NCBI GenBank assembly: GCA_003242895.1
Contig: QKMY01000057.1
Span: 1-64,000, forward strand
Origin: Candidatus Margulisiibacteriota bacterium
GTDB lineage: Bacteria; Margulisbacteria; Riflemargulisbacteria; GWF2-39-127
DNA length: 64,000 nucleotides
Direction of reading: 5' to 3'
Position numbers and translations under genes: made by a program. A model generated the notes under the pieces. It made no database searches. It was not told the DNA's origin and was given only the letters and a program-made list of their open reading frames with translations. Numbering within the stretch: position 1 is the first letter of the stretch; every line of letters starts with the position of its first letter. Shown one piece after another: positions 44,981 through 63,092 of this stretch.

Positions 44981-47900
44981 ATGAAAAAATTAAGTATAAT
45001 TAATGGTAGTATATTAATTATTCTTATTATTATAGCAACAAGTACGTACTTTGTTATTTCCAAAAAAAAACAAGAACAATTTTACGCCTTAATGCAATAT
45101 AAAAAAGTTGCCCAAAAAGTCGTCCACGATAGCTGGAATCACTACAAAAATAACGAGAACTTTAAAGGAGATTGGTGGGCTGGCAGATTCGTGCACCCAA
45201 AGATGATCCTGGACAATGGTTGTCCTCTTGCATTTCCTGATGGTTCCGATGTCGATATGGATGGACTCTCGGATATTGATTGGGGCAATCCAACCAAACC
45301 TTATGAGTATACGGTTGTTTCCGAAGGAGCTTCGTATGTCATGCTCAGAGCTGTTTGGATGAGAGATAAACAAACTTTTGATAAAGTCTGGAAGTGGACT
45401 CATGATAATCTACAGAGGGCGAATGTTAAATACATTTATTATTGGAAAGATGTAAATAATCCCGAGAATGCTTGGAAGACTCCTGAGGAATTGAATCTTG
45501 ACCGAGATAACTTGTTTTCTTGGAGATGGTTACCTACTATAGCCACTCGGGATGGGAAATCCCAGGATGGAGTTATTTATTATAAATGGCAGCCGCCTAC
45601 TAAAGAACATAATCCGAATGATCCATGGCGAGATGGTTGGGATAATGCGACTGATGCTGATGCGGATATTGCATTAGCGCTAGTGTTTGCTGACAGTTTG
45701 TGGGGAAGTGCCGAGAAGGATTCTTATAATAATTACTCTGAACATGCGCGGGGAATTTTGAATGATTTATGGGATAAATGTACCGTTATAGGTGGAGGAG
45801 TCCGTTATATAGATGGAGGAAATAATGTAAAAAGTTTGGAGCCTGGTTATCTTTCTCCTTTCAGCTATAGAATATTTGATGATTTCGATCCAAAACATGA
45901 TTGGATGCAGCTTGTAGATTCTTCCTATAGAATATTTAGAGATTCCCCTCGATTCCCTATGAATCCTATTGCGGATAAATTAGGAAAAATGCATCTGAAT
46001 GATCCAAGAACAAAAAAACCTGCCCCAAATCTGATACCGGATTGGATAAATGTTGAGCAGGATGGTAGTCTTGCTGATGGTTCTCCACGAAATGAACCGG
46101 AATTTGGGACTGATAGCTTCAGAGCTTTATGGCGAATATCAGTAGATTATTTATGGAATAAGCCTGATCAGGCAAAAGAAGTGCTCTTCGCCTCAGGCCA
46201 GTCCAGCCCGATAAAATTCTTTAAATGGAGAATGAAGAATCCTCCCAAAGATATACCAGATCAAAAATATGATCTGAACGGTAAATTGAGTTCAGTCTTC
46301 TGGCATAACGGTGATGTGCCCTGGTTTGAACCTAATTATGAGCCTCCTGCCGATATACCGAATCGTAAGGATCGAAGCAATTGTTTCAGAGCCAATTGCG
46401 CTAATTATGGGGTATATCTGTCATATTTATATGCGGCTGAAGAGTTCGATTTTGCCAAGCAATTTTTGATGCCGCTAATCAATGAAGAACAAGATGGGTT
46501 TTCGAAGAGGCAATATATTATACCGGAAGACCAGCTTAAACAGGAGACTCCTGAACATCTTGCAATGAATACTCCTCTCGAAAAACGGGATTCAACTCAT
46601 GACAACGGAATTCCTTACTCAAATGAACGGGGCGATGGCTGGTGGATAAAGAGCCAGTGGGGTGGATATTGGACTCAATGGGACCATAGTGACTGGAATA
46701 GCCAGAATGAGTACTTTAATAACATGTGGACATGGTTTGGTTTAGCTACCTATGCAGGTGTTGTTCAGAATCTCTATAAAGATCAGCAAAGAGAACCGAA
46801 AACCATTCAATCCATAAAAGTATATGAGGATGAAGCTTTAACAAAAGAACAAAAAGGACCTATTAATAGCGAATTTGTTTATGTGGTTGTTAAGGGCAAA
46901 GATGCGAATCGACGGCACCAAGACTATGTCAAGGTCAAAATATCAGCTAATGATCCGATTAAAGAGAATTATCCAATTACTCTTAAACTTACCGAAACTG
47001 CGAGAAATACCGGAGTTTTTGTTGCTAAACTAAGAGTTGGGATGGAGAGTAACAAAGCACTTGACCAGATTGGCGCTTCTCGTGGAAGCGATATTGATAT
47101 TATTGTTGAAGGTAGCAAAAAGCACCAAATAAAAAGAACCGTCGGTGATTTATATATCTCTATGACACTGGAAGATTATTCTAATGGATCAATAGATGAT
47201 GCTAATCCGACATCGTGGTGGACAGATTCTTATTTTCCAAGTTGTCCGAGCGATATATCTAATGAATCTAAAAAGTTTGGATATTATATTTGGGTTGATG
47301 CCTCTGACACGTGGCATATTGTCATGAAAACAACAACTAACAATATGCATACGTTTCAAGGTCAGATTTATTCCGATGGAGATTTCACCGATGTTAAAAA
47401 TATTAATCTTGAAAAAGGGGATAGTGTTATAGGTCAGGGCAAGTCCATATCATTTTCTTGTATTGATAAAAGTGGAATGGATAGTTTCAGCTTTAAATGT
47501 AAAGGAAGCTACATAAAATTAGATGTAAAATTGGATGGATTATATGAGCCTAAGAGTGTATTTGTAGGCGCCCCCTTAAGCGCAGCATATGGTATGCCGT
47601 TTGTTTTAAAAACGAAAGGTGAGACCGGGACCTATTTACTTACCCCGACAAAGGAAAAGCTCGGATCAAGTAAATATAGCATGAAAGTTGAGAAGAAATA
47701 CTCAGGAAAAGACTATCCATATTTTGGAATGGTGCTTTTTGATAAAGAAGCTAAAGACTGGTCTGGCAAGGATGAGTTTTCCATTTCTCTTTATTTAAAA
47801 GAAGATGTAGGCAATATCAGAGTTGACATCCAGGATTCAGCAGGAAATATCGCAATTTTAAATGGTTATAATCCTTGGGACCCAAATAAGGGCGAAGGCT

Positions 47901-50900
47901 GGTATGTTTGGCGTTCAAATACACTCAAAGGTACAGAAGTTAACCGAGATAATGTTGAACCAAGGGCAATAAAAGATAGAAAGTTTTGGAAGGGATGGAG
48001 TTTCGATCAGAATAAGACGGTAGAGGTGTCGAATAAGCTTAATTTACATGATATTGTTAATGTGCAAGTTTGTGTTGGACCTGCAGAAAACAAAGATTGT
48101 ACTCTTTACATTGATAAGGTTTACCTGGAAACAAGTAATTATTATAAAGGAAAAAGTGATCCGAAAAATATTAAATATTTAGCGCTTTATAAGGATAAAG
48201 AGTTTCATATTCCTTTTTCTAAAGGTGAGACAATTAAACAAAATAGAGTTTATGTTGAATTAATAGGCAGAGATGGTAGTCCCTATACGGCAGACACTAT
48301 ATTAGTGAAAATTGATTCTTCGGATAAACATCCGAGATCAAGAGGCATTAAAATTCCCCTTGAAGAGACATCGGCTAATTCCGGTGTTTATCGGGGAGAA
48401 TTAAAAATAGGGATACAGAGTTCAGAGAAACTGGGCCTCGTGGGCGCAAGTAGAGGGAGTATAATCCAGTTATATTCTCGCATAAATAAGTTCAAAAATA
48501 TTAAGTATGAAATCGGTGATTTCCAGATAGAGACAGTGGTAGAGGATTTTGAGACGACACTTAGTAAACAGGCACCTGCAAGTTGGTGGACTGATGATCT
48601 CGATCCGTTACGAGGAGAACCGGAGTACGCTGCTGGGAGAAAACTAGGATATTTCTTATGGAAGACAAAAGATGATATTTGGCATCTTCGCTGGTCAGGA
48701 GATCTCCGTTCTCATTTGTTTTACGGAAAAATTACTGCAAATAATAATATAAAAATACTACAGAGAATTAATTTTGAAAAAGGTGATAGTGCGGAAACGA
48801 AAAAAAATATAATTATAATTAATGGAAATGAGGCAATCGGTGATGATGGCATAGATTTTATTGCTACTGGGGATGAAGTATGGTTTGATCTAAGTATAGA
48901 TAATATTTACTATGGCAATAAATTCCAAATAGGAAAATTCGAGTATAAAAAAGCTTATTCAATACCATTTATGTTGAAAAATACAGATATTACCTCGACC
49001 TATGCATTATTGACGACAGATACGAATAAATACGACGGCGAAAACTCCCTTTTTATTAGTAAAAAGTACAATAAAAAAGATTATCCATATATTGGAAAAT
49101 GGGGACTGGATGGCGAAAAAGCGAATTTCAGTCTTCAGGATAGTTTGAAATTTATGGTTTATCTCCCTAAGGATATCGGCAATATACGGGTAGATATAGA
49201 GGATACTTCCGGTAATTCTGCTATTGTGAATGAATATAATCCTTGGGACGAAAGTAAAGGTCGGGGATGGTATGAATGGGATTCTAATTTCTCATATGGA
49301 ATAGGGGTGTCAGAGAAAAAAATTCAGCCTTTACCAATTAAAGACAGAACTTGGTTTAGAGGCTGGCACCTGGTTAAACAGGAAAATATTGACGTTTCAA
49401 AGAAAATTAATCTGGCACATATTATCAATTTGTTGCTTTCAATTGGCGGTGGAGATAAAAAAGATGTTCATTTGAATATTGATAACATTAAATTGTATCG
49501 TGCTAATTATCATTTAGGTTCTGCTAAACCAAAGAAGATAACGGCTATTAATCTTTATTCCGATCAGAATTATCTAAAAGAAAAAATTATTGAAAATCAA
49601 AAAGTTAATAAGAAGAACATTTATGTTGAATTATGTGGGGTTGATGGTAACCCCTTTGAGCGTGATCGTTTTTATATTGATATTTTGACAGGGGACAAAT
49701 ATAAGAACTGTATTCCGATTAAGTTGCGGGTATATGAGACTAAAGCTGATAGCGGTATATATCGTGGAAAATTTACAATTGACCTGTCGAGCAGTGAGGC
49801 TCAGGAGACAATAGGTGCTGCCAGCGGTAAAAAGATCACAGTCGTTAGCCCATTGGGGGATAGGTCATTTTCTTTTATTGTTGGTGATATGCAGAATAGT
49901 TATATTATTGATGATTTTGAAGACGGCAGTATTTCTGATAAAAATCCTGTTACCTGGTGGATTGACACTATAGATCCTGTAGCCAAGAAGGTTCTTATCG
50001 ATCCTGTCTACGACAAAGGTGTTTACATCTACAGGGATATTGATGATGTCTGGCATGTTATCTGGAATCCGGAGGATAAAGATGAACAAATTTCAGGATA
50101 CATCGGGTTTGATAATAAATTAAAACTATTGGACAAAAAGGATTTTAAAAAAGGAATAACAATTGATAAAGATAAGAAGCAGCTGTTGTTCGATATGAAA
50201 GCTAAAAATAATTTAGTAAAGCAGTTGTCATTTAAGATGGATGGCAACAATTTAACCCTTTATTTCAAATCATCGGGAGTCGAAGCAAAAGATAAGGTAT
50301 TTATTGGGCAAGACAAGAAATCACCATTTATGTTACCAATAAAAATTAGTAATTTACCTGTTATCAATAATTATGATTTGTCAGTTTTAACTGATAAAGT
50401 TAAAGATACAGCATGTTCTCTTCAAATTAAAAAGAATTATACTGGAAATTCTTATCCGTATTTTGGTTGTTGGGGACTTGCTGGAGATGTATCGGATTTT
50501 AGCGACAAAGATAGTTTATCGTTTTGGGTCTATTTATTTGCTGATCCTGGCAATATACGGGTTGATATACAGGATGCTAATGGAATAACTGCAGTTCTGA
50601 ATGGGTACAATCCTTATGATTATCAAAAAGGACCGGGGTGGTATCTATGGACATCAGGCTTTACAGGAGGCTTTGATGTTGACGAAGGGAAAGCTCAACC
50701 TTTGCCGATTAAAGATCGTAAATGGTGGCAAGGCTGGGATCTGGAACTTCAGAAATATGTTGATGTGTCAGACAAGCTTGATTTAAGGAAGATCAAGAAC
50801 GTTCAGTTTGCAATAGGCGGTGGAGATAAGAGAAGCGTAACTATAGTCATAGATAATCTTAGAATTGATAAAGCAAATGTTCATTTTGGAAATACACCAC

Positions 50901-52738
50901 CGGCGAACATTAATGCGATTACATTTTATAAAACGAAATCGTACACAGATCCCTATTCACGAAATGACGAAATGAAACAGAATCATGTTTTTTTCAAGAT
51001 ATTCGGTGGAGATGGCGATCCACTCTCTCTTGATAAGTATAAGATTTCTGTATTCTCCGATGATCCAAGGGCTGATGCATATCCGATCGACATTATGGTT
51101 CAGGAAACCGGGACTAATACGGGCGTGTATACCGGTAAGTTTAACTTAGGTCTTAAATCAGATAACAAGACAGATACCCTTGGAATTGAAAAAGGCAGGT
51201 TAGTAAAAATTGCTTATGGGAATGGTAAGGTTGAGTCTATAAAAGTAGGGGAGATTGTTCAGCAATATCTAATTGATGATTTCAGTGATGGGAAGGTAAG
51301 TGATAAGAATCCTGTTACGTGGTGGGTAGATTCGGTTAACCCTGTTTCTGATAAGCCAATAGTTAATTCTAATTCTAAACCTGGTTACTATATCTGGAAA
51401 GAAAAAAATATCTGGCATGTGAGATGGCTTGGCAGTAAAAAAGGTGATAAATTTGAAGGCACAATATCAACAAAAGGGACTATAAAAAATCTATCAAAGG
51501 TTAAGTTGGACTTTTTTGACAAAATCAGGTCCGATGGAAAAACTATAACAATTCTTTCAAAAAACAAGTCTAAAGTTGTTGGTATAGATTTCTTTGCCGA
51601 TAGTGACTATGTGGAATTTGATATAAGGCAGAATGATGAATACCAAGGTAGAAATATCTGGATTGGAGCTAACGGATCCTTAGCCTATTCAGTTCCATTT
51701 CGTATTGATAATAATAAAATCTCTAGTACCTACAGGTTGTCAGTGGAAAAATCGACCAGAAAATCTGAAGGATCGATGATGAAAGTTGATAAAAGATATA
51801 GCAATAAAGATTATCCTTATTTCGGTTGCTGGGGCCTTCGTGGGGATGTCGGTAATTGGACCGATATCAATGAATTTTACATGTGGTTGTATTTACCTGG
51901 CGATGTGGGTAGTATAAAAGTTGAATTAGAAGATAATAAGGGACAAAAGGGAATCCTTAACGGATATAGCCCTTACGATCCTAAAAAAGGACCTGGATGG
52001 TATAAGTGGACTTCCAATTTTTTCGATAGCCCAGAAGTAAAAGATGAAAATATACATCCTTTGCCTATAAAGAACCGAAAATGGTGGAAATCCTGGAGTG
52101 ATAACGAACAGGCTTTTATCGATAATACTGAAAATTTTGATTTGTCTAACATTAAGAATGTGGAGTTTGTTGTTGGTGGCGGCGAGACTAGGAACGTGGT
52201 CCTGTATGTGGATAGTATAGTTCTAGAGAAGACGAATTATCGATTAGGTGATGCTTATCCAAGCATAATTAAAACGATTACTATATATAAAGATAAAAGC
52301 TATCTATATAAGTATAAAAAGAATGAGGCTATATCAAAAAAAGATGTTTTTATTGAACTGGTTGGACAAGACGGGAACAAAGATGCTGTAGATATAATTG
52401 ATGTTGTAATTAACATTACGCATAAGGGGAAAGAGATTTCTAGGTATCTTCATCTGCTTGAATCATCTGCTGACTCAGGAATATATAGAGGTAAAATGAG
52501 AGTTTCGACAGGTCCTCAATTAGAAACTGATGAGTGGCTTGTGAATAAAGGTGATGTTTTAACTATTAAGACCTTAGGCAGTGACTTAAAAACATCTAGC
52601 ATAAAGATAGGTAATATAAATAAGGGAAGCAGTAAGTTTAATGTATTAAAAATGTTAAGTTTTATCGGCGTAATGATGATAATCATTGTTTATTATAAAG
52701 TAAGACCGAGTAGAAATGTACGAGATATCAAATTATAG
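44981..52738 (+). CDS. Giant GH8-family glycoside hydrolase with four-and-a-half tandem repeats
   Basis: 2585 residues. N-terminal membrane segment (SIINGSILIILIIIATSTYF), then a GH8 (alpha/alpha)6 catalytic domain to about residue 600. Catalytic-site landmarks are the general acid Glu115 in VVSEGASYVMLRAVW, and the GH8 signature NATDADADIALALVFADSLW with Asp225/Asp227. GH8 enzymes cut beta-1,4 glycans (cellulose, chitosan, xylan, lichenan). Then come alternating modules: A (Ig-like, about 120 residues, ending in ETxxxSGVYRGxL) and B (about 335 residues, opening DFxDGxxxDxNPxTWW). A second membrane segment (MLSFIGVMMIIIVYY) and a basic tail close the protein. Both ends appear membrane-embedded. 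GAAGGATAAACATTGA precedes the ATG. Confidence 0.85.
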   Translation: MKKLSIINGSILIILIIIATSTYFVISKKKQEQFYALMQYKKVAQKVVHDSWNHYKNNENFKGDWWAGRFVHPKMILDNGCPLAFPDGSDVDMDGLSDIDWGNPTKPYEYTVVSEGASYVMLRAVWMRDKQTFDKVWKWTHDNLQRANVKYIYYWKDVNNPENAWKTPEELNLDRDNLFSWRWLPTIATRDGKSQDGVIYYKWQPPTKEHNPNDPWRDGWDNATDADADIALALVFADSLWGSAEKDSYNNYSEHARGILNDLWDKCTVIGGGVRYIDGGNNVKSLEPGYLSPFSYRIFDDFDPKHDWMQLVDSSYRIFRDSPRFPMNPIADKLGKMHLNDPRTKKPAPNLIPDWINVEQDGSLADGSPRNEPEFGTDSFRALWRISVDYLWNKPDQAKEVLFASGQSSPIKFFKWRMKNPPKDIPDQKYDLNGKLSSVFWHNGDVPWFEPNYEPPADIPNRKDRSNCFRANCANYGVYLSYLYAAEEFDFAKQFLMPLINEEQDGFSKRQYIIPEDQLKQETPEHLAMNTPLEKRDSTHDNGIPYSNERGDGWWIKSQWGGYWTQWDHSDWNSQNEYFNNMWTWFGLATYAGVVQNLYKDQQREPKTIQSIKVYEDEALTKEQKGPINSEFVYVVVKGKDANRRHQDYVKVKISANDPIKENYPITLKLTETARNTGVFVAKLRVGMESNKALDQIGASRGSDIDIIVEGSKKHQIKRTVGDLYISMTLEDYSNGSIDDANPTSWWTDSYFPSCPSDISNESKKFGYYIWVDASDTWHIVMKTTTNNMHTFQGQIYSDGDFTDVKNINLEKGDSVIGQGKSISFSCIDKSGMDSFSFKCKGSYIKLDVKLDGLYEPKSVFVGAPLSAAYGMPFVLKTKGETGTYLLTPTKEKLGSSKYSMKVEKKYSGKDYPYFGMVLFDKEAKDWSGKDEFSISLYLKEDVGNIRVDIQDSAGNIAILNGYNPWDPNKGEGWYVWRSNTLKGTEVNRDNVEPRAIKDRKFWKGWSFDQNKTVEVSNKLNLHDIVNVQVCVGPAENKDCTLYIDKVYLETSNYYKGKSDPKNIKYLALYKDKEFHIPFSKGETIKQNRVYVELIGRDGSPYTADTILVKIDSSDKHPRSRGIKIPLEETSANSGVYRGELKIGIQSSEKLGLVGASRGSIIQLYSRINKFKNIKYEIGDFQIETVVEDFETTLSKQAPASWWTDDLDPLRGEPEYAAGRKLGYFLWKTKDDIWHLRWSGDLRSHLFYGKITANNNIKILQRINFEKGDSAETKKNIIIINGNEAIGDDGIDFIATGDEVWFDLSIDNIYYGNKFQIGKFEYKKAYSIPFMLKNTDITSTYALLTTDTNKYDGENSLFISKKYNKKDYPYIGKWGLDGEKANFSLQDSLKFMVYLPKDIGNIRVDIEDTSGNSAIVNEYNPWDESKGRGWYEWDSNFSYGIGVSEKKIQPLPIKDRTWFRGWHLVKQENIDVSKKINLAHIINLLLSIGGGDKKDVHLNIDNIKLYRANYHLGSAKPKKITAINLYSDQNYLKEKIIENQKVNKKNIYVELCGVDGNPFERDRFYIDILTGDKYKNCIPIKLRVYETKADSGIYRGKFTIDLSSSEAQETIGAASGKKITVVSPLGDRSFSFIVGDMQNSYIIDDFEDGSISDKNPVTWWIDTIDPVAKKVLIDPVYDKGVYIYRDIDDVWHVIWNPEDKDEQISGYIGFDNKLKLLDKKDFKKGITIDKDKKQLLFDMKAKNNLVKQLSFKMDGNNLTLYFKSSGVEAKDKVFIGQDKKSPFMLPIKISNLPVINNYDLSVLTDKVKDTACSLQIKKNYTGNSYPYFGCWGLAGDVSDFSDKDSLSFWVYLFADPGNIRVDIQDANGITAVLNGYNPYDYQKGPGWYLWTSGFTGGFDVDEGKAQPLPIKDRKWWQGWDLELQKYVDVSDKLDLRKIKNVQFAIGGGDKRSVTIVIDNLRIDKANVHFGNTPPANINAITFYKTKSYTDPYSRNDEMKQNHVFFKIFGGDGDPLSLDKYKISVFSDDPRADAYPIDIMVQETGTNTGVYTGKFNLGLKSDNKTDTLGIEKGRLVKIAYGNGKVESIKVGEIVQQYLIDDFSDGKVSDKNPVTWWVDSVNPVSDKPIVNSNSKPGYYIWKEKNIWHVRWLGSKKGDKFEGTISTKGTIKNLSKVKLDFFDKIRSDGKTITILSKNKSKVVGIDFFADSDYVEFDIRQNDEYQGRNIWIGANGSLAYSVPFRIDNNKISSTYRLSVEKSTRKSEGSMMKVDKRYSNKDYPYFGCWGLRGDVGNWTDINEFYMWLYLPGDVGSIKVELEDNKGQKGILNGYSPYDPKKGPGWYKWTSNFFDSPEVKDENIHPLPIKNRKWWKSWSDNEQAFIDNTENFDLSNIKNVEFVVGGGETRNVVLYVDSIVLEKTNYRLGDAYPSIIKTITIYKDKSYLYKYKKNEAISKKDVFIELVGQDGNKDAVDIIDVVINITHKGKEISRYLHLLESSADSGIYRGKMRVSTGPQLETDEWLVNKGDVLTIKTLGSDLKTSSIKIGNINKGSSKFNVLKMLSFIGVMMIIIVYYKVRPSRNVRDIKL
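46800..52620 (+). repeat. Intragenic tandem repeat, unit about 1370 bp
   Basis: B modules begin near 47160, 48530, 49900 and 51265, a period of about 1365-1370 bases (about 456 residues). A modules begin near 46800, 48160, 49525, 50905 and 52250. The protein copies are clearly related but divergent, so the array is old. Conserved B-module motifs: KxYPYFGxWGLxGDxxxF, DxGNIRVDIxD, NGYNPxDxxKGxGWYxW and PLPIKDRxWWxGW; conserved A-module motif: IYVELxGxDGxPxxxD. The best guess for B is a carbohydrate-binding jelly-roll pair. Confidence 0.85.
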
Positions 52739-53680: not shown

Positions 53681-54346
53681 ATGATAAAATCAAACAAAAA
53701 TATCTTAAATATAACAAATTATTTTGGAATCTTTTTCTGTTTGCTGAGTGTTTTGACTGCAGTTCCTCTTGGAGCCATTACAAAAGAATATATTGTTGAT
53801 AATTTTGAGGATAGTGCGATAACAACTAGTTTAAAATGGGAATTTCATGGTGCTATTAAGAGTAAAATAGGTGACTCGCTTAAAACCATGGAAGATAGTC
53901 TTGGAATTAAAAGGAAAATTGGAAGTAATTTTTTAAATATTAGTGGAAAGACAAATAATTGGTATGTTGGAGGAGCAAGAACGAAGCTGAAAAAGGTCAT
54001 AGACCCCTATACTCACTTTAGCATCATGATTCAGGGTCGAGGAAGTAATAGAAGTAAGGTAACGGTTGAGCTGTCGGAAGTAGTCCTTCAGGATGTTATT
54101 AGAGAAATGAGAGAAAAACCAGACGTTTATTCTTATTCTATATATGTAAGCTGGACTGGTTGGAAGAAAGTAATCATTCCTCTCAGAAAGTTTACAAATA
54201 AAAAGAAAGTTGTTGGCAATAGGGCATTCGATTCAAAAAAAACAAGTCCAAAATGGTTGAAACTAGAGTTTTTGAATGACCAGAAAGAGGGTCCAATTAC
54301 TCTTGATATTGATAATGTTAAATTTGTTACTTTAGAAAAAATATAG
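53681..54346 (+). CDS. Secreted protein with CBM-like fold, kin to the giant's repeats
   Basis: 221 residues with an N-terminal hydrophobic segment (YFGIFFCLLSVLTAVPLGAI) that looks like a signal peptide. The mature part starts EYIVDNFEDSAITTSLKWEF, mirroring the DFEDG...WW opening of the B modules in the 2585-residue protein, and ends in GPITLDIDNVKFVTL, like their IDNIxL strand. This resembles galactose-binding-like carbohydrate modules (CBM11/CIA30 type). No Shine-Dalgarno site is visible before the ATG at 53681. It heads the run of subunit genes. Confidence 0.6.
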   Translation: MIKSNKNILNITNYFGIFFCLLSVLTAVPLGAITKEYIVDNFEDSAITTSLKWEFHGAIKSKIGDSLKTMEDSLGIKRKIGSNFLNISGKTNNWYVGGARTKLKKVIDPYTHFSIMIQGRGSNRSKVTVELSEVVLQDVIREMREKPDVYSYSIYVSWTGWKKVIIPLRKFTNKKKVVGNRAFDSKKTSPKWLKLEFLNDQKEGPITLDIDNVKFVTLEKI

Positions 54347-54363
54347 GAGCTATCAGGTAATTT

Positions 54364-54978
54364 ATGGGTTTCAATAAGATTATAGGTTATGTATTGTTAT
54401 TATCTTTTATGGTTTCTTCATTGTGCTATGCAGCAGAAAGTACAATTGATTTTTCTTTTCATATTCCTTTTTCAGCGGCTTTAGATGTGGACAAATTTGA
54501 TGTCGATTTTGGCGCTATGGACATGTATGATGAAATATGGGCTCCAGTTGGCGATTCTAACAGTTTCAAAGTTTATGCAAGAAATAATTCCGGCTCCAAC
54601 TGGCAATTCAGCATGCATCTCATCGATGACCTTCATCGTGAAGAAGGGGTAAGTTCTCCTCAAGATATTATCAAGGCCGGAGATGTTTTCTGGACACTAG
54701 TGTATGCCGGATATTATGATAGTGAGGCAAAAACCCAGGTGGGTGCGAAAAACGAACTCACTCGGATACCCGGAATGGTCCCAACAATACTTCAGAAAAG
54801 TGCATTTCAAACGAGTAGCCTAAGTAATAGTGCACTCGTTTTTAATAATAATGTTCCTGATCGCCAGGATAAGTCGTATAATTACCAATTTGTTTTTAAA
54901 TTTATTATGAAACCTCCCTTTAATACTAATTCTGGAGATTATAGAGGTACTATTGTTTTTACAATGATGACACAATAA
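54364..54978 (+). CDS. Secreted pilin-like subunit 1 of a chaperone-usher-like system
   Basis: 204 residues. Signal peptide (YVLLLSFMVSSLCYAAE), then a beta-sandwich-like domain with DKFDVDFGAMDMYDE, SNSFKVYARNNSGSNWQFSM and a final strand NTNSGDYRGTIVFTMMTQ. The [S/T]G-x-Y-x-G-x-x-x-F-T-M ending recurs in the next two genes and recalls the last strand of pilins and spore-coat-U/WxL-type domains. The closeness of the following gene (starting 30 bases later) implies one mRNA. Subunit role is inferred from context. Confidence 0.6.
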   Translation: MGFNKIIGYVLLLSFMVSSLCYAAESTIDFSFHIPFSAALDVDKFDVDFGAMDMYDEIWAPVGDSNSFKVYARNNSGSNWQFSMHLIDDLHREEGVSSPQDIIKAGDVFWTLVYAGYYDSEAKTQVGAKNELTRIPGMVPTILQKSAFQTSSLSNSALVFNNNVPDRQDKSYNYQFVFKFIMKPPFNTNSGDYRGTIVFTMMTQ

Positions 54979-55008
54979 ATGTATTTGGTTGTAACGAAAG
55001 GAGATACA

Positions 55009-55542
55009 ATGAAAAAGTTAATTATCGCAATGTTTGTATTAATGTTTGCAGGGATATGTTATTCAGAGATTACTAATGATATCGATGTCCATGTGAGGGT
55101 TAACTCAAAGTTCGAATTAACTGTCGATAGAACATTTATCGATTTCGAGACAATGGAACCGGGTGAAATTAAGCAGGGAGTTCCTGATTCTGGGATTAGA
55201 ATCAGCGCTAAATCGAATAGTGGTAGTCCATGGTTTTTAACAATTAATAATGTGAGAGAGCTTAGCAACGGAGCTGATATTATTCCTAACGAGAATTTCT
55301 TTTGGTATGGCTGGAAGGGAAAGGGTTCTACAGGAACATTTTATGGCGAAAAATCTCAAGTATTTACAGTTACGCCTACACTTATGTATAGCCCGTCATC
55401 TCAGGAATTTAACAATCTTCGACTCGTCGGTGATAATAAGATTGAAGGTACCGATGTGTTTGTTAAGTTTGGCTTAAAAGTTCCGTTCAAACAAAATAGC
55501 GGGGAGTATCATACTCTGGTTAGATTTACTATGACAGAGTAA
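55009..55542 (+). CDS. Secreted pilin-like subunit 2
   Basis: 177 residues from the ATG at 55009 (GAAAGGAGATACA upstream; an earlier ATG at 54979 abuts the previous stop but lacks a site). Signal peptide LIIAMFVLMFAGICYSE. Domain features match subunit 1: FELTVDRTFIDFETMEPGEI, SGIRISAKSNSGSPWFLTIN, and the terminal KQNSGEYHTLVRFTMTE. These are the pieces of an incomplete Ig-like fold (FG-like start, polar middle, beta-hairpin end). Confidence 0.62.
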   Translation: MKKLIIAMFVLMFAGICYSEITNDIDVHVRVNSKFELTVDRTFIDFETMEPGEIKQGVPDSGIRISAKSNSGSPWFLTINNVRELSNGADIIPNENFFWYGWKGKGSTGTFYGEKSQVFTVTPTLMYSPSSQEFNNLRLVGDNKIEGTDVFVKFGLKVPFKQNSGEYHTLVRFTMTE

Positions 55543-55603
55543 TTGTCAGGTGCACTTTCCTTAATAAGAATAATTAGGACGTTTATCAAATAGAGGGTCA
55601 GAA

Positions 55604-56170
55604 ATGAAAAAGAACATTTTATTACTATTACTTCTACTGTTATTTTTAGCAACTGGACACCTGGTATACGCTGAGAAGACGCTGATTGCAGAAATAAAAT
55701 CGAATAATTTAGATTTTATTGACCCGGGAAAAGCCGGCTGGGATTATATTGACGGGAAATATTTGCAGGTAGAAATTACCTGTTCGATGAATGAAGTTCC
55801 TTGGAATCTCATGGTTAATCTCGATAATCTTAATAGTGGCTCTAATACATTTGAAGCTCAGAAGAATATTAAGCTTAAAGTTTTTTATATAGGGCATTCG
55901 AAAAAGGCGGAGATTCTTGATCCGCTGCTTTCAACCTGGGAAGATCATACAACAGACTACTTGAAGCCAGAATTTTCAGGGTATGATCCTGGTGCAAGTT
56001 TTGTAGATTATAATGGAACTGCTATGCAGATTTGCGGAAATAATGCTTTTCCTGCCGGAATGTCGAACGTTTTGGTTAGAGTCGTTCTTGGTGTTACGGT
56101 CCAGGTTCCGGAAGGTGGGCGTAATATTACCGGAGACTATCTGGGCAGGTTGAGGTTCACACTGAATTGA
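55604..56170 (+). CDS. Secreted pilin-like subunit 3
   Basis: 188 residues. A long hydrophobic signal peptide (NILLLLLLLLFLATGHLVYA), then EIKSNNLDFIDPGKAGWDYI, QVEITCSMNEVPWNLMVNLD and the terminal RNITGDYLGRLRFTLN. It has the same plan as the two upstream genes but a divergent middle with two cysteines (TCSMN, ICGNN) that may form a disulphide. GAGGGTCAGAA precedes the ATG. Confidence 0.6.
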   Translation: MKKNILLLLLLLLFLATGHLVYAEKTLIAEIKSNNLDFIDPGKAGWDYIDGKYLQVEITCSMNEVPWNLMVNLDNLNSGSNTFEAQKNIKLKVFYIGHSKKAEILDPLLSTWEDHTTDYLKPEFSGYDPGASFVDYNGTAMQICGNNAFPAGMSNVLVRVVLGVTVQVPEGGRNITGDYLGRLRFTLN

Positions 56171-56232
56171 TAAAACTAATAATTATGGATCGTAAGATAT
56201 ATATGAGATCATCCTTGAAGGGATATTTGTAA

Positions 56233-57426
56233 ATGAGAAAATTACTGTCACTCATTGTGATTATAATATTAGCACAAAACGTAGCTGGAGCTTTTTCTTT
56301 TAATATTGATAAACCAGGTACTTATCTGTCTTCAAAATCAGGTAAAGTTATCAATGGAACTGTTGTCGTTGCGAATACCGGCAAAGATACTCTCTACTTT
56401 AAGTCCTATATAGCTGACTGGAAAATTTTACCGGATGGTTCAAAAGCTTTTTATCCTGCTGGAAGTACTGGACTATCGAGCGCCCCTTGGCTCAGTATTT
56501 ATCCAAAAGAATTTGCTGTCGAGCCTTTAGGAAAAGAGAAAATAAGCTATATTATGACTGTACCGAAAAATGCTGTTGGTGGTCACTATAGCGTAATCTT
56601 TTTCGAGACATATGATAAAAATAATACGAAAAATAATATCTTATTTTCTGGTAGAATCGGGAGCATTATTTATCATCAGGTAGAGGGTACTGAAAAAATT
56701 GATGCAAACTTGACAGATGTATTTGTAGATTACAAAAATGGTAAGCGTACAGTTTCTTATATGTTTGAGAATATGGGAAATATTTTTCTTCTTGTCAAAC
56801 CGTCGCTTGCAATTCTTAATGATCGAGGTCAAGTCGCATTTCGAGAATCTATGGACAAATTTGGTGTATTGCCGGGACAAAAAATAGTGCGGACCTACAA
56901 AGTATCACAGAAGCTTCCGGACGGAGACTATACTGCATTAATAACAACAGAATATGGCAAAGAAGATTTTAAAGTTGTAGAAAAAGAATTCCGCAGTATT
57001 AATCAGGGTGGCAACGCTTTGAACCTACTAAATAAGTCGGATGCCGCTATAACAATTAATTACAATAAATCCACATCCAGCGAGACGGTTTCACGGCGTG
57101 AGAATCTTGGACTTGCCCAAAAAATTTCTATTGAGAAATTTAATCCGGTCGTCAATAAAAATAAAATTAAACTATTTGTATTACTCAAAAATCCTATTGA
57201 GGAAGCTATAAGTGCAAATGCATTGATCACTGTTTCTGATGCCTTTAGGAATAAGAAATTAATGGTATCGCTGGGAAGAAATTTCCAAATAGCGAATAAA
57301 GGAAAAAAAATAATGAATAAAATAATTGGCCATTCACTTGCCGCTGGCACATATACTGTTACCTTAGATGTTATGAATGGAATCGATACTCTTGCTAAAG
57401 ATGAAAAAACGATAGTAATCAGGTAG
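56233..57426 (+). CDS. PapD-like periplasmic chaperone with extra C-terminal domain
   Basis: 397 residues. Signal peptide (LLSLIVIIILAQNVAGAF). Residues about 20-125 look like the first Ig domain of PapD-type chaperones (GTVVVANTGKDTLYFKSYIA, APWLSIYPKEFAVEPLGKEK, YSVIFFETYD), and 125-235 like the second domain. About 135 further residues form a third beta domain (NPVVNKNKIKLFVLLKNPIE, FRNKKLMVSLGRNFQI), a size close to the DUF916/WxL-interacting group instead of the 230-residue classical chaperones. The gene ends 4 bases before the usher-like gene. Confidence 0.65.
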   Translation: MRKLLSLIVIIILAQNVAGAFSFNIDKPGTYLSSKSGKVINGTVVVANTGKDTLYFKSYIADWKILPDGSKAFYPAGSTGLSSAPWLSIYPKEFAVEPLGKEKISYIMTVPKNAVGGHYSVIFFETYDKNNTKNNILFSGRIGSIIYHQVEGTEKIDANLTDVFVDYKNGKRTVSYMFENMGNIFLLVKPSLAILNDRGQVAFRESMDKFGVLPGQKIVRTYKVSQKLPDGDYTALITTEYGKEDFKVVEKEFRSINQGGNALNLLNKSDAAITINYNKSTSSETVSRRENLGLAQKISIEKFNPVVNKNKIKLFVLLKNPIEEAISANALITVSDAFRNKKLMVSLGRNFQIANKGKKIMNKIIGHSLAAGTYTVTLDVMNGIDTLAKDEKTIVIR

Positions 57427-57430
57427 GAAT

Positions 57431-59746
57431 ATGAAACGACTATTATTAGCTATAATATTGTTACTCGTCAATTCAGCTTGGGCGTTTTGCTTAGATGCAA
57501 TAACTATAAATAAAGATAAAATATATGTAATCGCCGATGTCTCCAAGTATCTTATTCAGGATGAATCTATTGTTTCGGCTACATATAATGATAATAAAAA
57601 GAGCGTTAGTATTTATGGCAGTCGTCTTGGCAGTACTATACTCCATGTGTGGAGCAGTGAGAAAAGAAGATCATATAAAGTCATTGTGAAAAGACCCGAA
57701 ATCGTAAGACGCGGATCTACTGGAAAAGGAGATTTGCAACCAGGTTTTAAGTTTGGAATATCTGCTGGAAGGAAAATAGGCGAGTCAGAATCAAAGATAA
57801 CGGCAAATAGGTATGAGTATATTTCTGATTATTATGTGCTGGATGGCTATGGAAATACAAATTATGGGTTTATGCAAAGCCAAATAGGCTATAAAGTAAA
57901 TAAAGAAGCTGCTGGAATTGCTCGCAGTGTCAGTAGCGTCAAGCTTTCTTTTCAAAAGGAGTCGACGAAGTTTACTTTTGGTGATCAAACGTTACGTTAC
58001 TCCGAGTTCGTTTTGCCCTTTCAGGCTATTCAGGGAATTACATATGCGACTAAGTATGGCATTTCTAACGTCAATATTTCTTACGGAGCTAACCGATATG
58101 GGTGGTGGGGAAAAGACAATTACCGTGATGAAAGACCAACCCAATATTTTCTTGGATTAAATGTACTTACTCCATTCGATCGAGATTTCTCCATCGGGTT
58201 TGCAACTGTAATGAAATCCGAGAAAAATCTGCCTAGGTCATTAGTCCTTGGCCTCTACGGAAACTATCGGCTTAATAAAAACATAGATACTCTTGGTGAA
58301 TTAGCTGTGAATGGCCGCAGACTTGCTGGCAAGATAGGTCTTAACTATGAAAATAGCGGGTTTTTTATTAACTCCGCTTATCGAAATGCCTCTCAAGGAT
58401 ATAAAGCTGTGAATGATTTCATTTCCTATAATGGGATCAGAGGTTTATATCTAAATTCGGGATACAAATACAATGATTACTTAACTTTTTCCAGCAGTGT
58501 CGACCAATATGTTGATACTCAATATGATAGAAACTACAATAACCAGGATATCAACACGACTACTTACTTCAATTATAATAACTGGGGTTTTACCCATAGC
58601 TTATGGAGGCAGAATCGTGGTAACTTTTTGGGTTCCGGGATTGGGCAGGGACAGAATTATGAACTTTCTTATTTAGCTCCGGTTCAAAAAACAAGAGTTT
58701 ATATTAAATATACTCCCTCTTCTTTTGAGGAGAATGTTAGTAGTAACCAGGATTATAGTATGAGTTCTTCTATTGCTGGATTTCAGTATGGCCTATTTGC
58801 CGGAGCGAGTGTTGTTGTTGAAAAGCAGTGGAATAGCCGTTCAGGTAATAGAGATAACTTTTCACCTCAAAGTTTGAGGGCCTATTTATCGATGCCGCAA
58901 TTAAGGCTCGCTACAACTCCATTCTACTTAGATGTCTATGCTCGGTATCAAGACGATTATGATACTTCTTTTAGAGTTGTGCAGAACTATAGTCTGTTGC
59001 GAAGTCGTATAGAATGGAGAAACGCTGCTGATCAGCGGATTTATTTGGAAGGTAATATCAAGAATGTTAATGGAGACAAGGATTTAAGTATTGACCGAAG
59101 AGTAACTGAGTATACTTTTGGTATGACAATGTTCTTGGATAGCGGAGTACATCTTTCTACCGGCTATGGAAAGATTAAGGGATCAGTTTTTATTGACAAT
59201 GATGGTGACGGTGTAATGTCCGCTAGCGAAACTGGGTTTGAAGGTATAAAGGTCCGTTTAAGTGATGGTAATGTTGCGGTTACTGATGTAAATGGGGCTT
59301 TTAGTTTCAATAATGTTAACGGGGCAAATGTGGATATTTACATCGAGCCGGAAGTCTTGCGAAGTGAGTATATTTTTACAACATTAGACCGTCGAACTGT
59401 ATATTTTAATTCAAATCAGGATCAATCTATATCTTTTGGGCTTTCATCTAAATCACTTGTTCAGGGAATAGTATTTTTAGACCAGAATAATAACAACATT
59501 TATGATCCGGGAGAACCACTTATTTCTGGAGTAAGAGTTCAGGTTAAAGGTGTCGATGCCTGCAAATCAGATGAAAATGGTGCGTTTATAATCAATTCAG
59601 TTCCTTCCGGGAAACAGGTTTTTACCGTTGATATGTTTACGGTGCCTGAAGATTATTCGGTATATGGCTCTCTTAGTCGCGAAATCAACGTTAATCCAGG
59701 GGAAAAGGTGCAGATATATCTTCCTTTAAGGGTATACAAGTATTAA
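57431..59746 (+). CDS. Usher-like outer-membrane protein with CpaC-type N-domain
   Basis: 771 residues with a signal peptide (LLLAIILLLVNSAWAF). Residues about 25-90 (ITINKDKIYVIADVSKYLIQ, KKSVSIYGSRLGSTILHVWS) match the pilus-assembly secretin N-terminal domain of CpaC/RcpA. Residues about 105-575 are an aromatic-rich beta-barrel (NVNISYGANRYGWWGKDNYR, YLSYLAPVQKTRVYIKYTPS-like strands). The C-terminus carries two carboxypeptidase-regulatory/SdrD-B-like domains (GSVFIDNDGDGVMSASETGF, QGIVFLDQNNNNIYDPGEPL), which occur at usher ends. It is clearly not a classical FimD. The assignment as assembly pore is inferred from the chaperone and subunits next to it. Confidence 0.68.
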   Translation: MKRLLLAIILLLVNSAWAFCLDAITINKDKIYVIADVSKYLIQDESIVSATYNDNKKSVSIYGSRLGSTILHVWSSEKRRSYKVIVKRPEIVRRGSTGKGDLQPGFKFGISAGRKIGESESKITANRYEYISDYYVLDGYGNTNYGFMQSQIGYKVNKEAAGIARSVSSVKLSFQKESTKFTFGDQTLRYSEFVLPFQAIQGITYATKYGISNVNISYGANRYGWWGKDNYRDERPTQYFLGLNVLTPFDRDFSIGFATVMKSEKNLPRSLVLGLYGNYRLNKNIDTLGELAVNGRRLAGKIGLNYENSGFFINSAYRNASQGYKAVNDFISYNGIRGLYLNSGYKYNDYLTFSSSVDQYVDTQYDRNYNNQDINTTTYFNYNNWGFTHSLWRQNRGNFLGSGIGQGQNYELSYLAPVQKTRVYIKYTPSSFEENVSSNQDYSMSSSIAGFQYGLFAGASVVVEKQWNSRSGNRDNFSPQSLRAYLSMPQLRLATTPFYLDVYARYQDDYDTSFRVVQNYSLLRSRIEWRNAADQRIYLEGNIKNVNGDKDLSIDRRVTEYTFGMTMFLDSGVHLSTGYGKIKGSVFIDNDGDGVMSASETGFEGIKVRLSDGNVAVTDVNGAFSFNNVNGANVDIYIEPEVLRSEYIFTTLDRRTVYFNSNQDQSISFGLSSKSLVQGIVFLDQNNNNIYDPGEPLISGVRVQVKGVDACKSDENGAFIINSVPSGKQVFTVDMFTVPEDYSVYGSLSREINVNPGEKVQIYLPLRVYKY

Positions 59747-59900: not shown

Positions 59901-62900
59901 ATGAAAAAAAGAAACGCTGCCATTTTAATTGTTGCTGCCGGTATTATTATAACATCGATATTTTTCATCATAAAATCAGATATTTTTAAAGTAACAGGAA
60001 TTTCTGTACAGGCTAAAAAACAAGCCAAAATAGATACTCTTGAAATAACGAATTTTCTGAAAAATCCTGATTTTTCAGCTGACATCGATAATAATGGGAT
60101 TCCCGATAATTGGGGTGAGAAGCCTTATAACTCAAAAACCATTAAAGACAAAAAAACCGGAAAGTATTATTTGCATATTAAAAATGACGAGCCGGGATCT
60201 GCTATCGGTTCTCAAAAGATTGCAATTGATGGAAGGCAAATCTCCCTATTGAGTGTAGCTGGTTATGTGAGAGCGTCTTCTGTTACTCGGGGGAATCAGC
60301 CTTGGGAAACCGGAAAAATCCAGGTGCTATTTTTTGATAAGAATAGTAAACAGATTGGCGATTGGCCTGAAGTTGGGTCTTATACCGGAAGTTTTGACTG
60401 GAAACAGGTTAAGAAAGTATTTCAGGTACCAAGGGCCACTCGTATTGTTCAGCTCAATATCGGACTTTGGAATTGCAGTGGTGAAATTGATTTTTCCCAT
60501 TTTAAAGTAGTTCCGAATAAGCCGCTCCCCCGGGATCAGTATAATTTTGTTATAAATGGAGATTTTGAGATCTGGCAGGGATGGGTTTATGGTGGTAGCG
60601 CAGACTGGGGAATACAGTATCCTGGTTATAATGGTGATGGCCTGCTTTTTATTAATAATGAGTCTAATATGTGGTCCTTTGCCACACAGTCTATCAAGAT
60701 AGATTCTACAAAGATTAAAAATATCAAGATTTCTGCCTGGATGAAAATTAAAAAAATTGTTCAGGGCGAACAGCCTTGGGAAAAAGCTAGAATTAATGTG
60801 GAATTCAAAAATGAACAAGGTGTTCGTCTTGGTGGCTGGCCAATTGTGCACGAAGCAGCCGGAAATTTTGACTGGAAGAAAGTTGAACAGGCATTTGAAG
60901 TGCCTGAAGGTACGACGAAAGTCGAACTTTTTGTAGGACTGCTTAACTGCAAAGGCGAAGCCTGGTTCGATGACATTGTTATGAATGCTTTTGGTAAAAA
61001 TGGTGAAAAGATAGTAGGAGAAGATTTTGTTAAAACGAATACCAAGAATTGGTTTACTTTTGCTCCTCAGGAAATTAAGCCGGGAAGTGTATTGGATTTA
61101 TCTCCTAATCTTCAGGCTCCAGCTGGGAAAAACGGGTTTGTTAAAGTCAAAAATGACCATTTTTATTTTGAGAATGGCGAGAGAGCCAGATTTTATGGCA
61201 CGAACGTTTTTGGTCCCCAGCTCTTTCTCTCGAAAAATGAAGCGAGTGTGTTAGCTGATCGGATTGCGCGTTTAGGATTCAACATTGTCCGTATTCACCA
61301 TTTAGATGCTGCCTGGTCTGATCCGAATATTTTTGACAAAACGTATAATGATACCCAGCATTTCTCTAAGGAAAATCTTGATAAGGTCGATTTTTTTATT
61401 TCCGAGCTGGAGAAGCGCGGGGTCTATATTTATCTCGACCTGTTGGTACATCGGGGCTTTAAAGAAGGAGATAAGGTCAATGATCACGATAAAATAGATA
61501 ATGGTGCAAAAGTGACTGGCTTATACGATGGCAGACTTATAGCACTGCAAAAAAAATATGCAAAAGATTTGTTGTTACATGTAAACCCGTATACGCAAAA
61601 GCAATACCTAAAAGATCCGGCAATTGCGATGGTTGGTATCGTGAATGAGAATTCACTGTTTTACGTTGCGCAGCAACCATGGCTGCCTGAATCAAGTACG
61701 AATAAGTTGAACGCTCTGTGGCAGAAATGGCTTAAAAAGAAGTATAAAACTCATGATGATCTTGATATTGAATGGTCTGACAGCCATGGAGCTCCATTGC
61801 TTGAATCCGATGAAAAGCTGAATAAAGGGACTGTGCGTCGAGGTAAAACGATGCTTGCGAAATACCGTCCAACAGAAGCAAAAAATGATCTGAGAGAAAA
61901 GGATACCCTGCAGTTCTATTATGAACTGGAGAAAAAATATTTTGCTGAGATGTTTAAATATCTTCGCTCAATTGGATTAAAGTCACCTGTTGCGGGTTCT
62001 AATCATTGGGAGAATATTGAATTCGACATCAAGGCAAATGCAGGACTTGATTTTATCGACAGGCATCGCTATTGGAACCACCCTCAATTTGGGTACGGTA
62101 CAGGTGTTGTGTTTGATAACCTATCAATGATTAAATATCCCGAAAAATCTATTCCTGCGATTCTTGCAGCACAAAAAGTGAAAGGCAAGCCTTTTGTGGT
62201 ATCTGAGTGGAACACTGCCTGGCCGGGTGATTATTATTTTGAAGGACCAGCGATTATGGCTTCGTATGCGAAGTTGCAGGATTGGGATGCGCTCCTACAG
62301 TTTAGTTTTAACAGCCCACGATATCCGGAAGTTTTTTCCGATAATTTTGACGTCGCTTCGTTTCCCAATGTTGTTTCTCAACTCCAAGTTGCGGGAGAAG
62401 CTTTTTACAGTACAGGTATTACGCCGGCAAAAGTTACTGTATGCGAGTATGTTAGCGATGATGCATTAAAAGACTTAATAAAAGAAGATCGCGGTGTTTT
62501 TGATAAACCGGAGTTATCGCTTGTGACCGCTGTTTCGAAATCTTTTGATAAAGCCCCTAATAATTATGATCCGAGCTTAAACCTTGTGAATACGTATATA
62601 GGAAAAAAAGGGAGTGTGCTCAAGAGCACTACAGGGCAGATGGAGTGGAATAGTAAGAAAGGCATAATCACATTAAATAGCCAGAAAATAATAGGAGCAA
62701 TAGGGTATCTTAAAAGCATACCTATTGAAATTGCTAACATAAACTTTACCGTAGATACGGACTTCGCTTCGTTGTTTTTTGTTTCGAAAGATGGTAAACC
62801 GCTAGCAGAGTCAAAAAAAATTCTGGTTGTAGCTACAGCTCGAGCAGAAAATACAGGTATGATCTATAATACAGTAAAGACACAGATCATCGATATTGGT

Positions 62901-63092
62901 GATGCTCCAATATTACTGGAAGGCGTAAAAGCAAGTATCAACATAAAAAATAGTTCGGCCGGAATTCATGTTTATTCGGTAGGGTTTGACGGTAAAACAA
63001 AACAGGAGATAACAACAAAGAATAAGAATAGCGCAATCAATTTCGAGTTATTACCGAGCAATCAGACATTATATTATTTAATAACTAGGTAA
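59901..63092 (+). CDS. GH5-like (clan GH-A) glycoside hydrolase with two N-terminal CBMs
   Basis: 1063 residues. An N-terminal membrane anchor (AAILIVAAGIIITSIFFIIK), two related carbohydrate-binding modules (about 50-205 starting NPDFSADIDNNGIPDNWG, and 218-365 starting NGDFEIWQGWVYGG; both of CBM4/9 type, each with EQPWE/NQPWET and FDWK signatures), then a TIM barrel from about 413. Catalytic acid Glu583 (GIVNENSL) and nucleophile Glu769 (VVSEWNTAW) stand in the NE ... SEW positions of clan GH-A. A beta-rich C-terminal domain follows. It probably attacks the same polysaccharide as the GH8 giant. It follows the usher-like gene after 155 bases. Confidence 0.82.
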   Translation: MKKRNAAILIVAAGIIITSIFFIIKSDIFKVTGISVQAKKQAKIDTLEITNFLKNPDFSADIDNNGIPDNWGEKPYNSKTIKDKKTGKYYLHIKNDEPGSAIGSQKIAIDGRQISLLSVAGYVRASSVTRGNQPWETGKIQVLFFDKNSKQIGDWPEVGSYTGSFDWKQVKKVFQVPRATRIVQLNIGLWNCSGEIDFSHFKVVPNKPLPRDQYNFVINGDFEIWQGWVYGGSADWGIQYPGYNGDGLLFINNESNMWSFATQSIKIDSTKIKNIKISAWMKIKKIVQGEQPWEKARINVEFKNEQGVRLGGWPIVHEAAGNFDWKKVEQAFEVPEGTTKVELFVGLLNCKGEAWFDDIVMNAFGKNGEKIVGEDFVKTNTKNWFTFAPQEIKPGSVLDLSPNLQAPAGKNGFVKVKNDHFYFENGERARFYGTNVFGPQLFLSKNEASVLADRIARLGFNIVRIHHLDAAWSDPNIFDKTYNDTQHFSKENLDKVDFFISELEKRGVYIYLDLLVHRGFKEGDKVNDHDKIDNGAKVTGLYDGRLIALQKKYAKDLLLHVNPYTQKQYLKDPAIAMVGIVNENSLFYVAQQPWLPESSTNKLNALWQKWLKKKYKTHDDLDIEWSDSHGAPLLESDEKLNKGTVRRGKTMLAKYRPTEAKNDLREKDTLQFYYELEKKYFAEMFKYLRSIGLKSPVAGSNHWENIEFDIKANAGLDFIDRHRYWNHPQFGYGTGVVFDNLSMIKYPEKSIPAILAAQKVKGKPFVVSEWNTAWPGDYYFEGPAIMASYAKLQDWDALLQFSFNSPRYPEVFSDNFDVASFPNVVSQLQVAGEAFYSTGITPAKVTVCEYVSDDALKDLIKEDRGVFDKPELSLVTAVSKSFDKAPNNYDPSLNLVNTYIGKKGSVLKSTTGQMEWNSKKGIITLNSQKIIGAIGYLKSIPIEIANINFTVDTDFASLFFVSKDGKPLAESKKILVVATARAENTGMIYNTVKTQIIDIGDAPILLEGVKASINIKNSSAGIHVYSVGFDGKTKQEITTKNKNSAINFELLPSNQTLYYLITR

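Follow-up and report, generated by a model that had tools for sequence, protein, structure and literature searches.

The described systems closest to the locus analysed here are the alpha chaperone–usher pathway (EcpA–EcpB–EcpC and CfaA–CfaC) and the Gram-positive WxL/WxLIP proteins (DUF916–DUF3324). In the alpha pathway, the genes follow the order pilin, chaperone and usher, and the chaperone has two Ig-like domains with a donor motif in the G1 strand. The donor-strand residues of EcpB have been tested by mutation (PMC4654587). The usher EcpC carries CooC_C and TcfC domains as well as a CarboxypepD_reg-like domain at its C-terminus. In the WxL system, an AlphaFold prediction shows WxLIP inserting a hairpin strand into WxL, which completes the sandwich (PMC10599100). 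A direct comparison of EcpB with WxLIP gives no match, and a link between WxL/WxLIP and the chaperone–usher pilus was not found in the literature searched.

The window, a stretch of 64,000 nucleotides from a Candidatus Margulisiibacteriota bacterium, contains six consecutive plus-strand ORFs (Table 1), in the order given by a preliminary description of this DNA. The stop codon of the chaperone gene is separated from the ATG of the barrel gene by 4 bases, also as described. Glycoside hydrolases neighbour the cluster. Among the readings considered, the six genes most likely form a non-classical chaperone–usher-like pilus system. It appears to be a variant of the chaperone–usher kind that is not FimD-type, and its predicted product is a thin surface fibre. 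This assignment is drawn from sequence, namely gene content, conservation, chaperone homology, the conserved donor register and the difference in N-terminal extensions.

Table 1. Positions of the six genes and their sub-features in the window.
Feature	Position	Strand	Evidence
Secreted CBM-like protein (221 aa), encoded by the first gene	53681–54346	+	CBM_11 23.5 bits (below the 27-bit cut-off); homologue first in most related loci
Pilin-like protein s1 (204 aa), has a signal peptide plus an N-terminal extension	54364–54978	+	Homologous to s2 (E 1.9e-12); extension precedes first strand
Pilin-like protein s2, the probable major subunit	54979–55542 (start likely 55009)	+	Nine related loci carry homologues (38–48% identity)
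Putative N-terminal donor strand in s2, EITNDIDVHVRVNS	55066–55107	+	Alternating hydrophobic residues
Pilin-like protein s3 (188 aa), lacks the N-terminal extension; putative fibre tip	55604–56170	+	Short cleavage-to-landmark stretch; s3-type gene adjoins chaperone
PapD-like/WxLIP-like periplasmic chaperone with third C-terminal domain	56233–57426	+	EcpB E 3.9e-8; WxLIP E 4e-8; fold matches of a relative's model
Chaperone donor-strand motif ILFSGRI, residues 136–142, P3–P0 and Arg141	56638–56658	+	Aligned with EcpB Ala111/113/115/Ile117 and Arg116
Usher-like outer-membrane barrel protein, 771 aa	57431–59746	+	AlphaFold2 model; top 11 PDB fold matches FimD/PapC
CpaC/RcpA-type N-domain, residues 25–86	57503–57688	+	PF13629 (T2SS-T3SS_pil_N) 24.4 bits (above the 23-bit cut-off); 7/14 members match, best E 1.3e-9
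Transmembrane barrel, about 24–26 strands, residues 106–570, no plug seen	57746–59140	+	DSSP on model, mean pLDDT 72.7
Two C-terminal Ig-like domains (SdrD_B/CarboxypepD_reg)	59165–59743	+	PF17210 (SdrD_B, 46.3 bits), PF13715, PF13620; E. coli usher C-terminal match

The chaperone family matches EcpB and WxLIP equally. Its profile aligns with E. coli EcpB over 202 columns, nearly the full length, and the mature part only still gives E 1.6e-7; shuffled EcpB and 150 unrelated ORFs scored no better than 0.01 and 0.0042, respectively. The alignment with WxLIP covers both domains over 216 columns, with reversed and shuffled controls at 0.09 or worse, and WxLIP_PGBD is the commonest Pfam match, found in 12 of the 18 members. 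A fold search with the model of a relative's chaperone returned CfaA, WxLIP, CsuC, FimC and Caf1M, which together with the EcpB match indicates a two-domain PapD-like fold. Compared with the classical and archaic systems (FimC/FimD and CsuC/CsuD), the overall chaperone fold is the same; however, PapD_N (PF00345) is absent from 12 genomes and matches one of the 18 members (E 0.0028), and the FimC family reaches only E 0.007 against the profile. Single-sequence PDB searches gave no useful match. The preliminary description had called the chaperone both PapD-like and WxL/DUF916-like, and both likenesses are borne out. The third domain that it noted is also present, as the protein has 397 residues compared with about 255 in most relatives. 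This domain is absent in most relatives and is not a defining part of the system.

The donor motif occupies the same G1 register as in the alpha pathway. Across the 18 members, the columns aligned to the EcpB donor residues P3, P2, P1 and P0 contain I/V/L/A, F/Y/I/V/L, mostly G/A, and I/L/V/M, giving a motif of alternating hydrophobics, and an arginine or lysine stands beside these columns in all 18. The RIG[TS] motif and, in domain 2, the N-x-GN and LPG motifs are likewise shared with the alpha pathway. However, the carboxylate anchor of EcpB (Arg89, Arg148 and Tyr169) is not conserved; the columns of Arg89 and Tyr169 are S/G/A and variable. A plain member of the alpha (EcpB/CfaA) pathway, transferred into these phyla, would account for the EcpB profile match and for EcpB being the only pilus chaperone that a sequence search of the PDB brought up (E 0.022). 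We regard such a transfer as quite improbable: besides the altered anchor residues, no match was found between the pilins and EcpA, none of 14 barrel members matches CooC_C, the TcfC plug or PF00577, and the gene context looks vertical in part of the phylum.

The three small proteins were first described as sharing a terminal [S/T]GxYxGxxxFT strand. The motif fits s1 and s3 strictly, but s2 has SGEYHTLVRFT in its place. A relaxed form occurs in 29 of 307 ORFs of related loci, and it is not a chance pattern because nearly all of its carriers are pilin-like genes of such clusters. For s2, the start is most likely at 55009 and not 54979, with an AAAGGAG ribosome site at 54997–55003. The upstream pilins have an N-terminal extension of ∼12–15 residues, which is absent from the chaperone-adjacent subunit. 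From the predicted signal cleavage site, located by a simple heuristic, to the landmark, the mean distance is 27 residues in s1/s2-type and 12.7 residues in s3-type proteins. The alternating hydrophobicity of the putative N-terminal donor strand gives shuffle p values of 0.027 for s2 and 0.006 for s1, and is weaker in some relatives. In the phylum, the gene immediately before that of the chaperone is of the s3 type, and since s3 lacks the extension we propose that it sits at the fibre tip. We also examined a pilin–chaperone fusion model, an artificial read-through of two adjacent genes of a relative's locus across the intervening stop codon, in which the partners are not confidently placed (pTM 0.54). 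For the donor-strand-like fibre assembly suggested at the outset, the conserved donor-strand register of the chaperone and the gene neighbourhood argue in favour, but the model does not add a confident interface.

Like WxL proteins, the pilins have a W-x-L turn and end in a Y...[FW]TL strand. The WxL Pfam domain has no match in 17 pilins, and a profile comparison gives a weak match (E 2.2e-4; controls 0.49 or worse). This match, the two-domain WxLIP match of the chaperone, the prevalence of WxLIP_PGBD and the predicted hairpin insertion would all suit a WxL-type surface complex of diderm bacteria. In such a complex, an inserted strand would join small WxL-like proteins to a WxLIP-like partner at the surface or in the periplasm, compactly and with no fibre, and the barrel would be an anchor or porin. 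Four observations make this unlikely. The extension on s1 and s2 and its absence on s3 fit polymerization; the 255-residue chaperones have a signal peptide but lack a WxLIP-like C-terminal membrane helix; the loci include a large barrel downstream of the chaperone; and EcpB, a proven pilus chaperone, is matched equally.

The barrel protein shares its N-domain with the CpaC/RcpA secretins of Tad pili; however, it has no secretin domain and its barrel is modelled as a single chain. The CpaC-type N-domain and the two carboxypeptidase-regulatory-like domains at the other end are both as first described. Against the C-terminal domains of E. coli ushers, the C-terminal region scores E 6e-5 (0.18 for the reversed control); in one family, the barrel proteins are 583 aa long and do not carry the C-terminal domains. 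In the AlphaFold2 model (pTM 0.45), up to 26 strands are followed by the two C-terminal domains, and no plug domain is seen, compared with the 24 strands, plug and C-terminal domains of an usher. When the whole model was searched, fold matches 1–11 were all full-length or near-full-length FimD/PapC (E 1e-17 to 1e-11), compared with 1e-7 for porins. In the same search, isolated usher pores (3e-7) rank alongside porins. By sequence, the barrel region does not match ushers (E 0.12; FadL 0.084), and we claim no homology for it, because barrel-only profiles gave no signal against E. coli ushers, Deinococcota barrels or FadL. The earlier term usher-like is supported for the whole-protein layout, which is shared with the classical and archaic systems; the barrel taken by itself ranks no nearer to ushers than to porins. 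Likewise, the proposed mixture of CpaC N-domain, usher-like barrel and WxL/DUF916-like chaperone holds for the N-domain, the chaperone and the whole-usher fold matches, but finds no sequence similarity to ushers in the barrel region. The usher family PF00577 is absent from 12 genomes including that of the window (the E. coli control was positive) and from 61 Deinococcota-side genomes. The barrel is thus not FimD-type, as stated earlier, but the better comparator, the EcpB/EcpC alpha pathway, also escapes PF00577. An ordinary porin next to unrelated secreted Ig-like proteins would explain the porin-like score of the barrel and the low sequence similarity between barrels. This is very improbable and already disfavoured by synteny: in several classes, and also in a second phylum, the chaperone and barrel genes are neighbours whose reading frames often overlap or touch.

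Of 74 Margulisiibacteriota genomes, 19 carry the chaperone, and the gene order is mostly pilins–chaperone–barrel. The cluster including the CBM-like gene is conserved in several of the phylum's families and classes. The search for this gene order in related genomes, recommended in the preliminary description, thus revealed a conserved neighbourhood. In Deinococcota, 'hypothetical' genes form a related cassette of pilin, chaperone, small protein and barrel. Its barrel has a different N-domain, and an extension may be retained in the small protein encoded after the chaperone. The barrel match between the two phyla rests on the C-terminal domains only. Twenty genomes of other phyla, scanned without a positive control, gave no match.

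If the chaperone–usher-like reading is correct, such fibres would occur in Margulisiibacteriota and in Deinococcota (Deinococcus and genomes resembling Thermus). Current usher and PapD models miss these clusters, and public records label nearly all parts hypothetical. Culturable Deinococcus strains make the mechanism open to experiment. The equal match of one family to both EcpB and WxLIP would also offer a testable origin for donor-strand assembly. Tentatively, the family may link WxL/WxLIP with the chaperone–usher pilus through a common donor-strand chaperone/subunit ancestor; lineages with an outer membrane would have recruited an usher-like barrel, whose N-domain is here of the secretin type. 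We consider this possible rather than probable.

For the chaperone–usher-like system, we infer the following scheme for how the subunits fold, exchange strands and pass through the barrel, and for the fibre and its use. The pilins would reach the periplasm as sandwich folds without the last strand, a gap that the chaperone G1 strand (residues 136–142) would fill, with Arg141 as the best candidate for holding the subunit C-terminus. At the outer membrane, the barrel protein would receive the chaperone–subunit complexes via its N-domain and C-terminal Ig-like domains. Assembly would begin with the extension-free s3, and each incoming subunit (s2 or s1) would use its own N-terminal extension to displace the chaperone strand from the previous one. 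The fibre may serve in adhesion to polysaccharide, given the presence of a CBM-like gene in the cluster and of glycoside hydrolases next to it.

The CBM-like character first noted for the product of the first gene is retained, although its CBM_11 match is sub-threshold, and its predicted role is perhaps surface carbohydrate binding. We considered this protein as a further pilin and rejected it, as its end lacks the terminal strand and resembles a CBM11/CIA30 domain; it looks like a self-contained carbohydrate-binding domain.

There is good indirect support that the cluster works like a non-classical chaperone–usher system, and by the tests made here it belongs to no described usher family. It lies in a 3.35 Mb assembly of the phylum Margulisiibacteriota, and the gene coordinates confirm six consecutive, closely spaced genes on the same strand. 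In Pfam the first product matches only CBM_11, below threshold, the three small proteins s1, s2 and s3 have no match and the chaperone has no firm one; NCBIfam and PHROGs added nothing useful for the cluster proteins. For the barrel protein, Pfam finds the N-domain of CpaC/RcpA type and the two Ig-like domains at the C-terminus already described. A search with the s2 family brings up Marinamargulisbacteria, Margulisbacteria GWF2_35_9 and Candidatus Termititenax as named relatives. Sugar-related neighbours like those flanking the cluster also occur at the related loci L023 and L029, and are absent from most other loci.

Coordinates of the cluster, its flanks and sequences discussed in the text
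Feature	Location	Remark
Flanking secreted protein	window 44981-52738	2585 aa, multi-domain
Cluster	window 53681-59746	plus strand
s1	window 54364-54978	pilin-like
s2	window 54979-55542	pilin-like
s3	window 55604-56170	pilin-like
Chaperone	window 56233-57426	
Barrel protein	window 57431-59746	771 aa
Flanking protein	window 59901-63092	1063 aa, CBM_4_9/GH42-like
Amidase-linked family	L030:4702-7188; L031:5288-7546; L035:897-2285; L038:5410-6798	
Distant variant	L041:2710-15721	a pair of chaperone-like proteins of 489 and 504 aa; GxYHLVITYT at the end of pilin-like proteins; 1332 aa DUF11/SdrD_B protein
Second, divergent pilin–chaperone pair of genome G005	L042:5725-7309	beside the main G005 cluster
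WxLIP-like stretch	CP069367.1 101863-102471	labelled Klebsiella pneumoniae plasmid

Among all PDB sequences, the chaperone family profile matches only WxLIP, a Gram-positive WxL-binding surface protein, of Enterococcus faecium (E 0.007) and EcpB, the alternative-pilus chaperone of E. coli (E 0.022). The E-values for these two proteins are pairwise, rest on a small number of sequences whose fold class is common, and are to be read with caution: the family aligns with EcpB over 202 columns in profile comparison (3.9e-8); mature EcpB matches the chaperone core, with signal peptides and the Deinococcota row left out, at 1.6e-7; controls for the EcpB match give at least 0.01 for shuffled EcpB, at least 0.004 for other E. 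coli chaperones and at least 0.0042 for 150 unrelated ORFs; and the WxLIP alignment matches over 216 columns (4e-8; reversed 0.17, column shuffles at least 0.096), which bears out the WxL/DUF916-like character proposed in the preliminary description. Neither the FimC family (0.25) nor single EcpB (0.4) matches WxLIP. Since the chaperone family matches both EcpB and WxLIP while these do not match each other, it stands between them. A WxLIP profile run over 523 ORFs ranks mostly chaperones at the top, with weak scores. In the literature searched, no paper connects chaperone–usher with WxL systems; both terms co-occur in one paper, a secretome survey. The stretch in CP069367.1 shares 70% identity with its E. 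faecium counterpart; contamination or mislabelling may account for it.

The donor strand of EcpB is lined by Ala111, Ala113, Ala115 and Ile117, and subunit capture is practically lost on changing three of these four residues (PMC4654587). In the profile alignment they correspond to Ile136, Phe138, Gly140 and Ile142 of the window chaperone, where the 18 members hold I/V/L/A, F/Y/I/V/L, mostly G/A, and I/L/V/M, respectively. The family does not conserve Arg89, Arg148 and Tyr169, the anchor residues of EcpB. Position 141 is R or K in all 18 members, and Arg141, the only positive position common to all outside the signal peptide, is from this conservation a candidate anchor. A minor pilin and the chaperone of locus L026 were modelled as one chain, an artificial construct with the intervening stop codon read through. 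Both parts are folded (mean pLDDT 80), and their relative placement is not trustworthy because the pTM is 0.54. This model matches the folds of CfaA, WxLIP, CsuC, FimC and Caf1M, interspersed with some eukaryotic Ig-like proteins. At L030, L036 and L038, the pilin and chaperone genes are in frame, separated by 1-2 TAG stops and a few codons.

Among the subunits, s1 is homologous to s2, and s3-type proteins are homologous to the s1/s2-type (profile E 5e-22). The mean distance from predicted signal cleavage to a common landmark strand is 27 residues in the s1/s2-type and 12.7 in the s3-type; in several members, hydrophobic and polar residues alternate along the extra N-terminal stretch. Tip subunits of chaperone–usher pili lack a donor extension, and s3 is therefore proposed as the tip. 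Between pilins and WxL domains the match is weak (E 2.2e-4; controls at least 0.49), and the ORFs listed by a small WxL profile over the 523 ORFs are mostly pilins, also with weak scores. A hairpin strand of WxLIP is predicted to enter WxL and complete the WxL sandwich (PMC10599100).

The AlphaFold2 model of the barrel protein, built with 14 sequences (mean pLDDT 72.7, pTM 0.45), comprises the N-domain, about 26 strands in residues 106-570 and two C-terminal domains; no plug domain is seen in it. FimD and PapC chains take the first 11 places among its fold matches in the PDB (E 1e-17 to 1e-11), with porins from 1e-7 and isolated usher pores at 3e-7. Because full usher chains rank at the top and pores alone fall near porins, the likeness lies in the whole layout and not in the barrel alone. 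In comparison with E. coli ushers, the C-terminal region matches their C-terminal domains (E 6e-5, against 0.18 for the reversed control); the barrel region has no match. EcpC, a genuine usher, also escapes PF00577, so the absence of this match alone does not exclude an usher; its CarboxypepD_reg-like C-terminal end is common to the window-type barrel protein. An EcpB/WxLIP-like chaperone paired with an usher-like barrel that has a secretin-type N-domain, a combination that had looked undescribed, was not found in the literature searched and is new to us.

Searches with the window chaperone find relatives in 20 of 95 genomes, a profile search does so in 19 of 74 Margulisiibacteriota genomes, and the barrel occurs in 17 of 95. 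Gene calls around the matches uphold the order CBM-like protein, one to three pilins, chaperone and barrel in most complete loci, across different families and classes. One group of families has the cluster in a conserved block adjoining putative DNA ligase and UDP-glucose dehydrogenase genes (names read from sequence), a placement that fits vertical descent. The third chaperone domain is confined to the window and one other family, most other chaperones having about 255 residues. One family has an N-acetylmuramoyl-L-alanine amidase gene (Amidase_3 and AMIN) directly 3′ of the barrel gene, which suggests wall opening coupled to assembly; its barrels are without C-terminal domains.

The window chaperone also matches a GC-rich genome outside Margulisiibacteriota, probably of Deinococcota. 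No usher model PF00577 match occurs in 61 relatives of that genome, and the chaperone is present in 35 of these 61, often in two or three copies. Their cassette encodes a pilin, the chaperone, a small protein and a barrel of 950-1110 aa that contains SdrD_B/CarboxypepD_reg domains. The same cassette lies on named Deinococcus plasmids, where all genes are annotated as hypothetical except one barrel, labelled by its carboxypeptidase-like domain.
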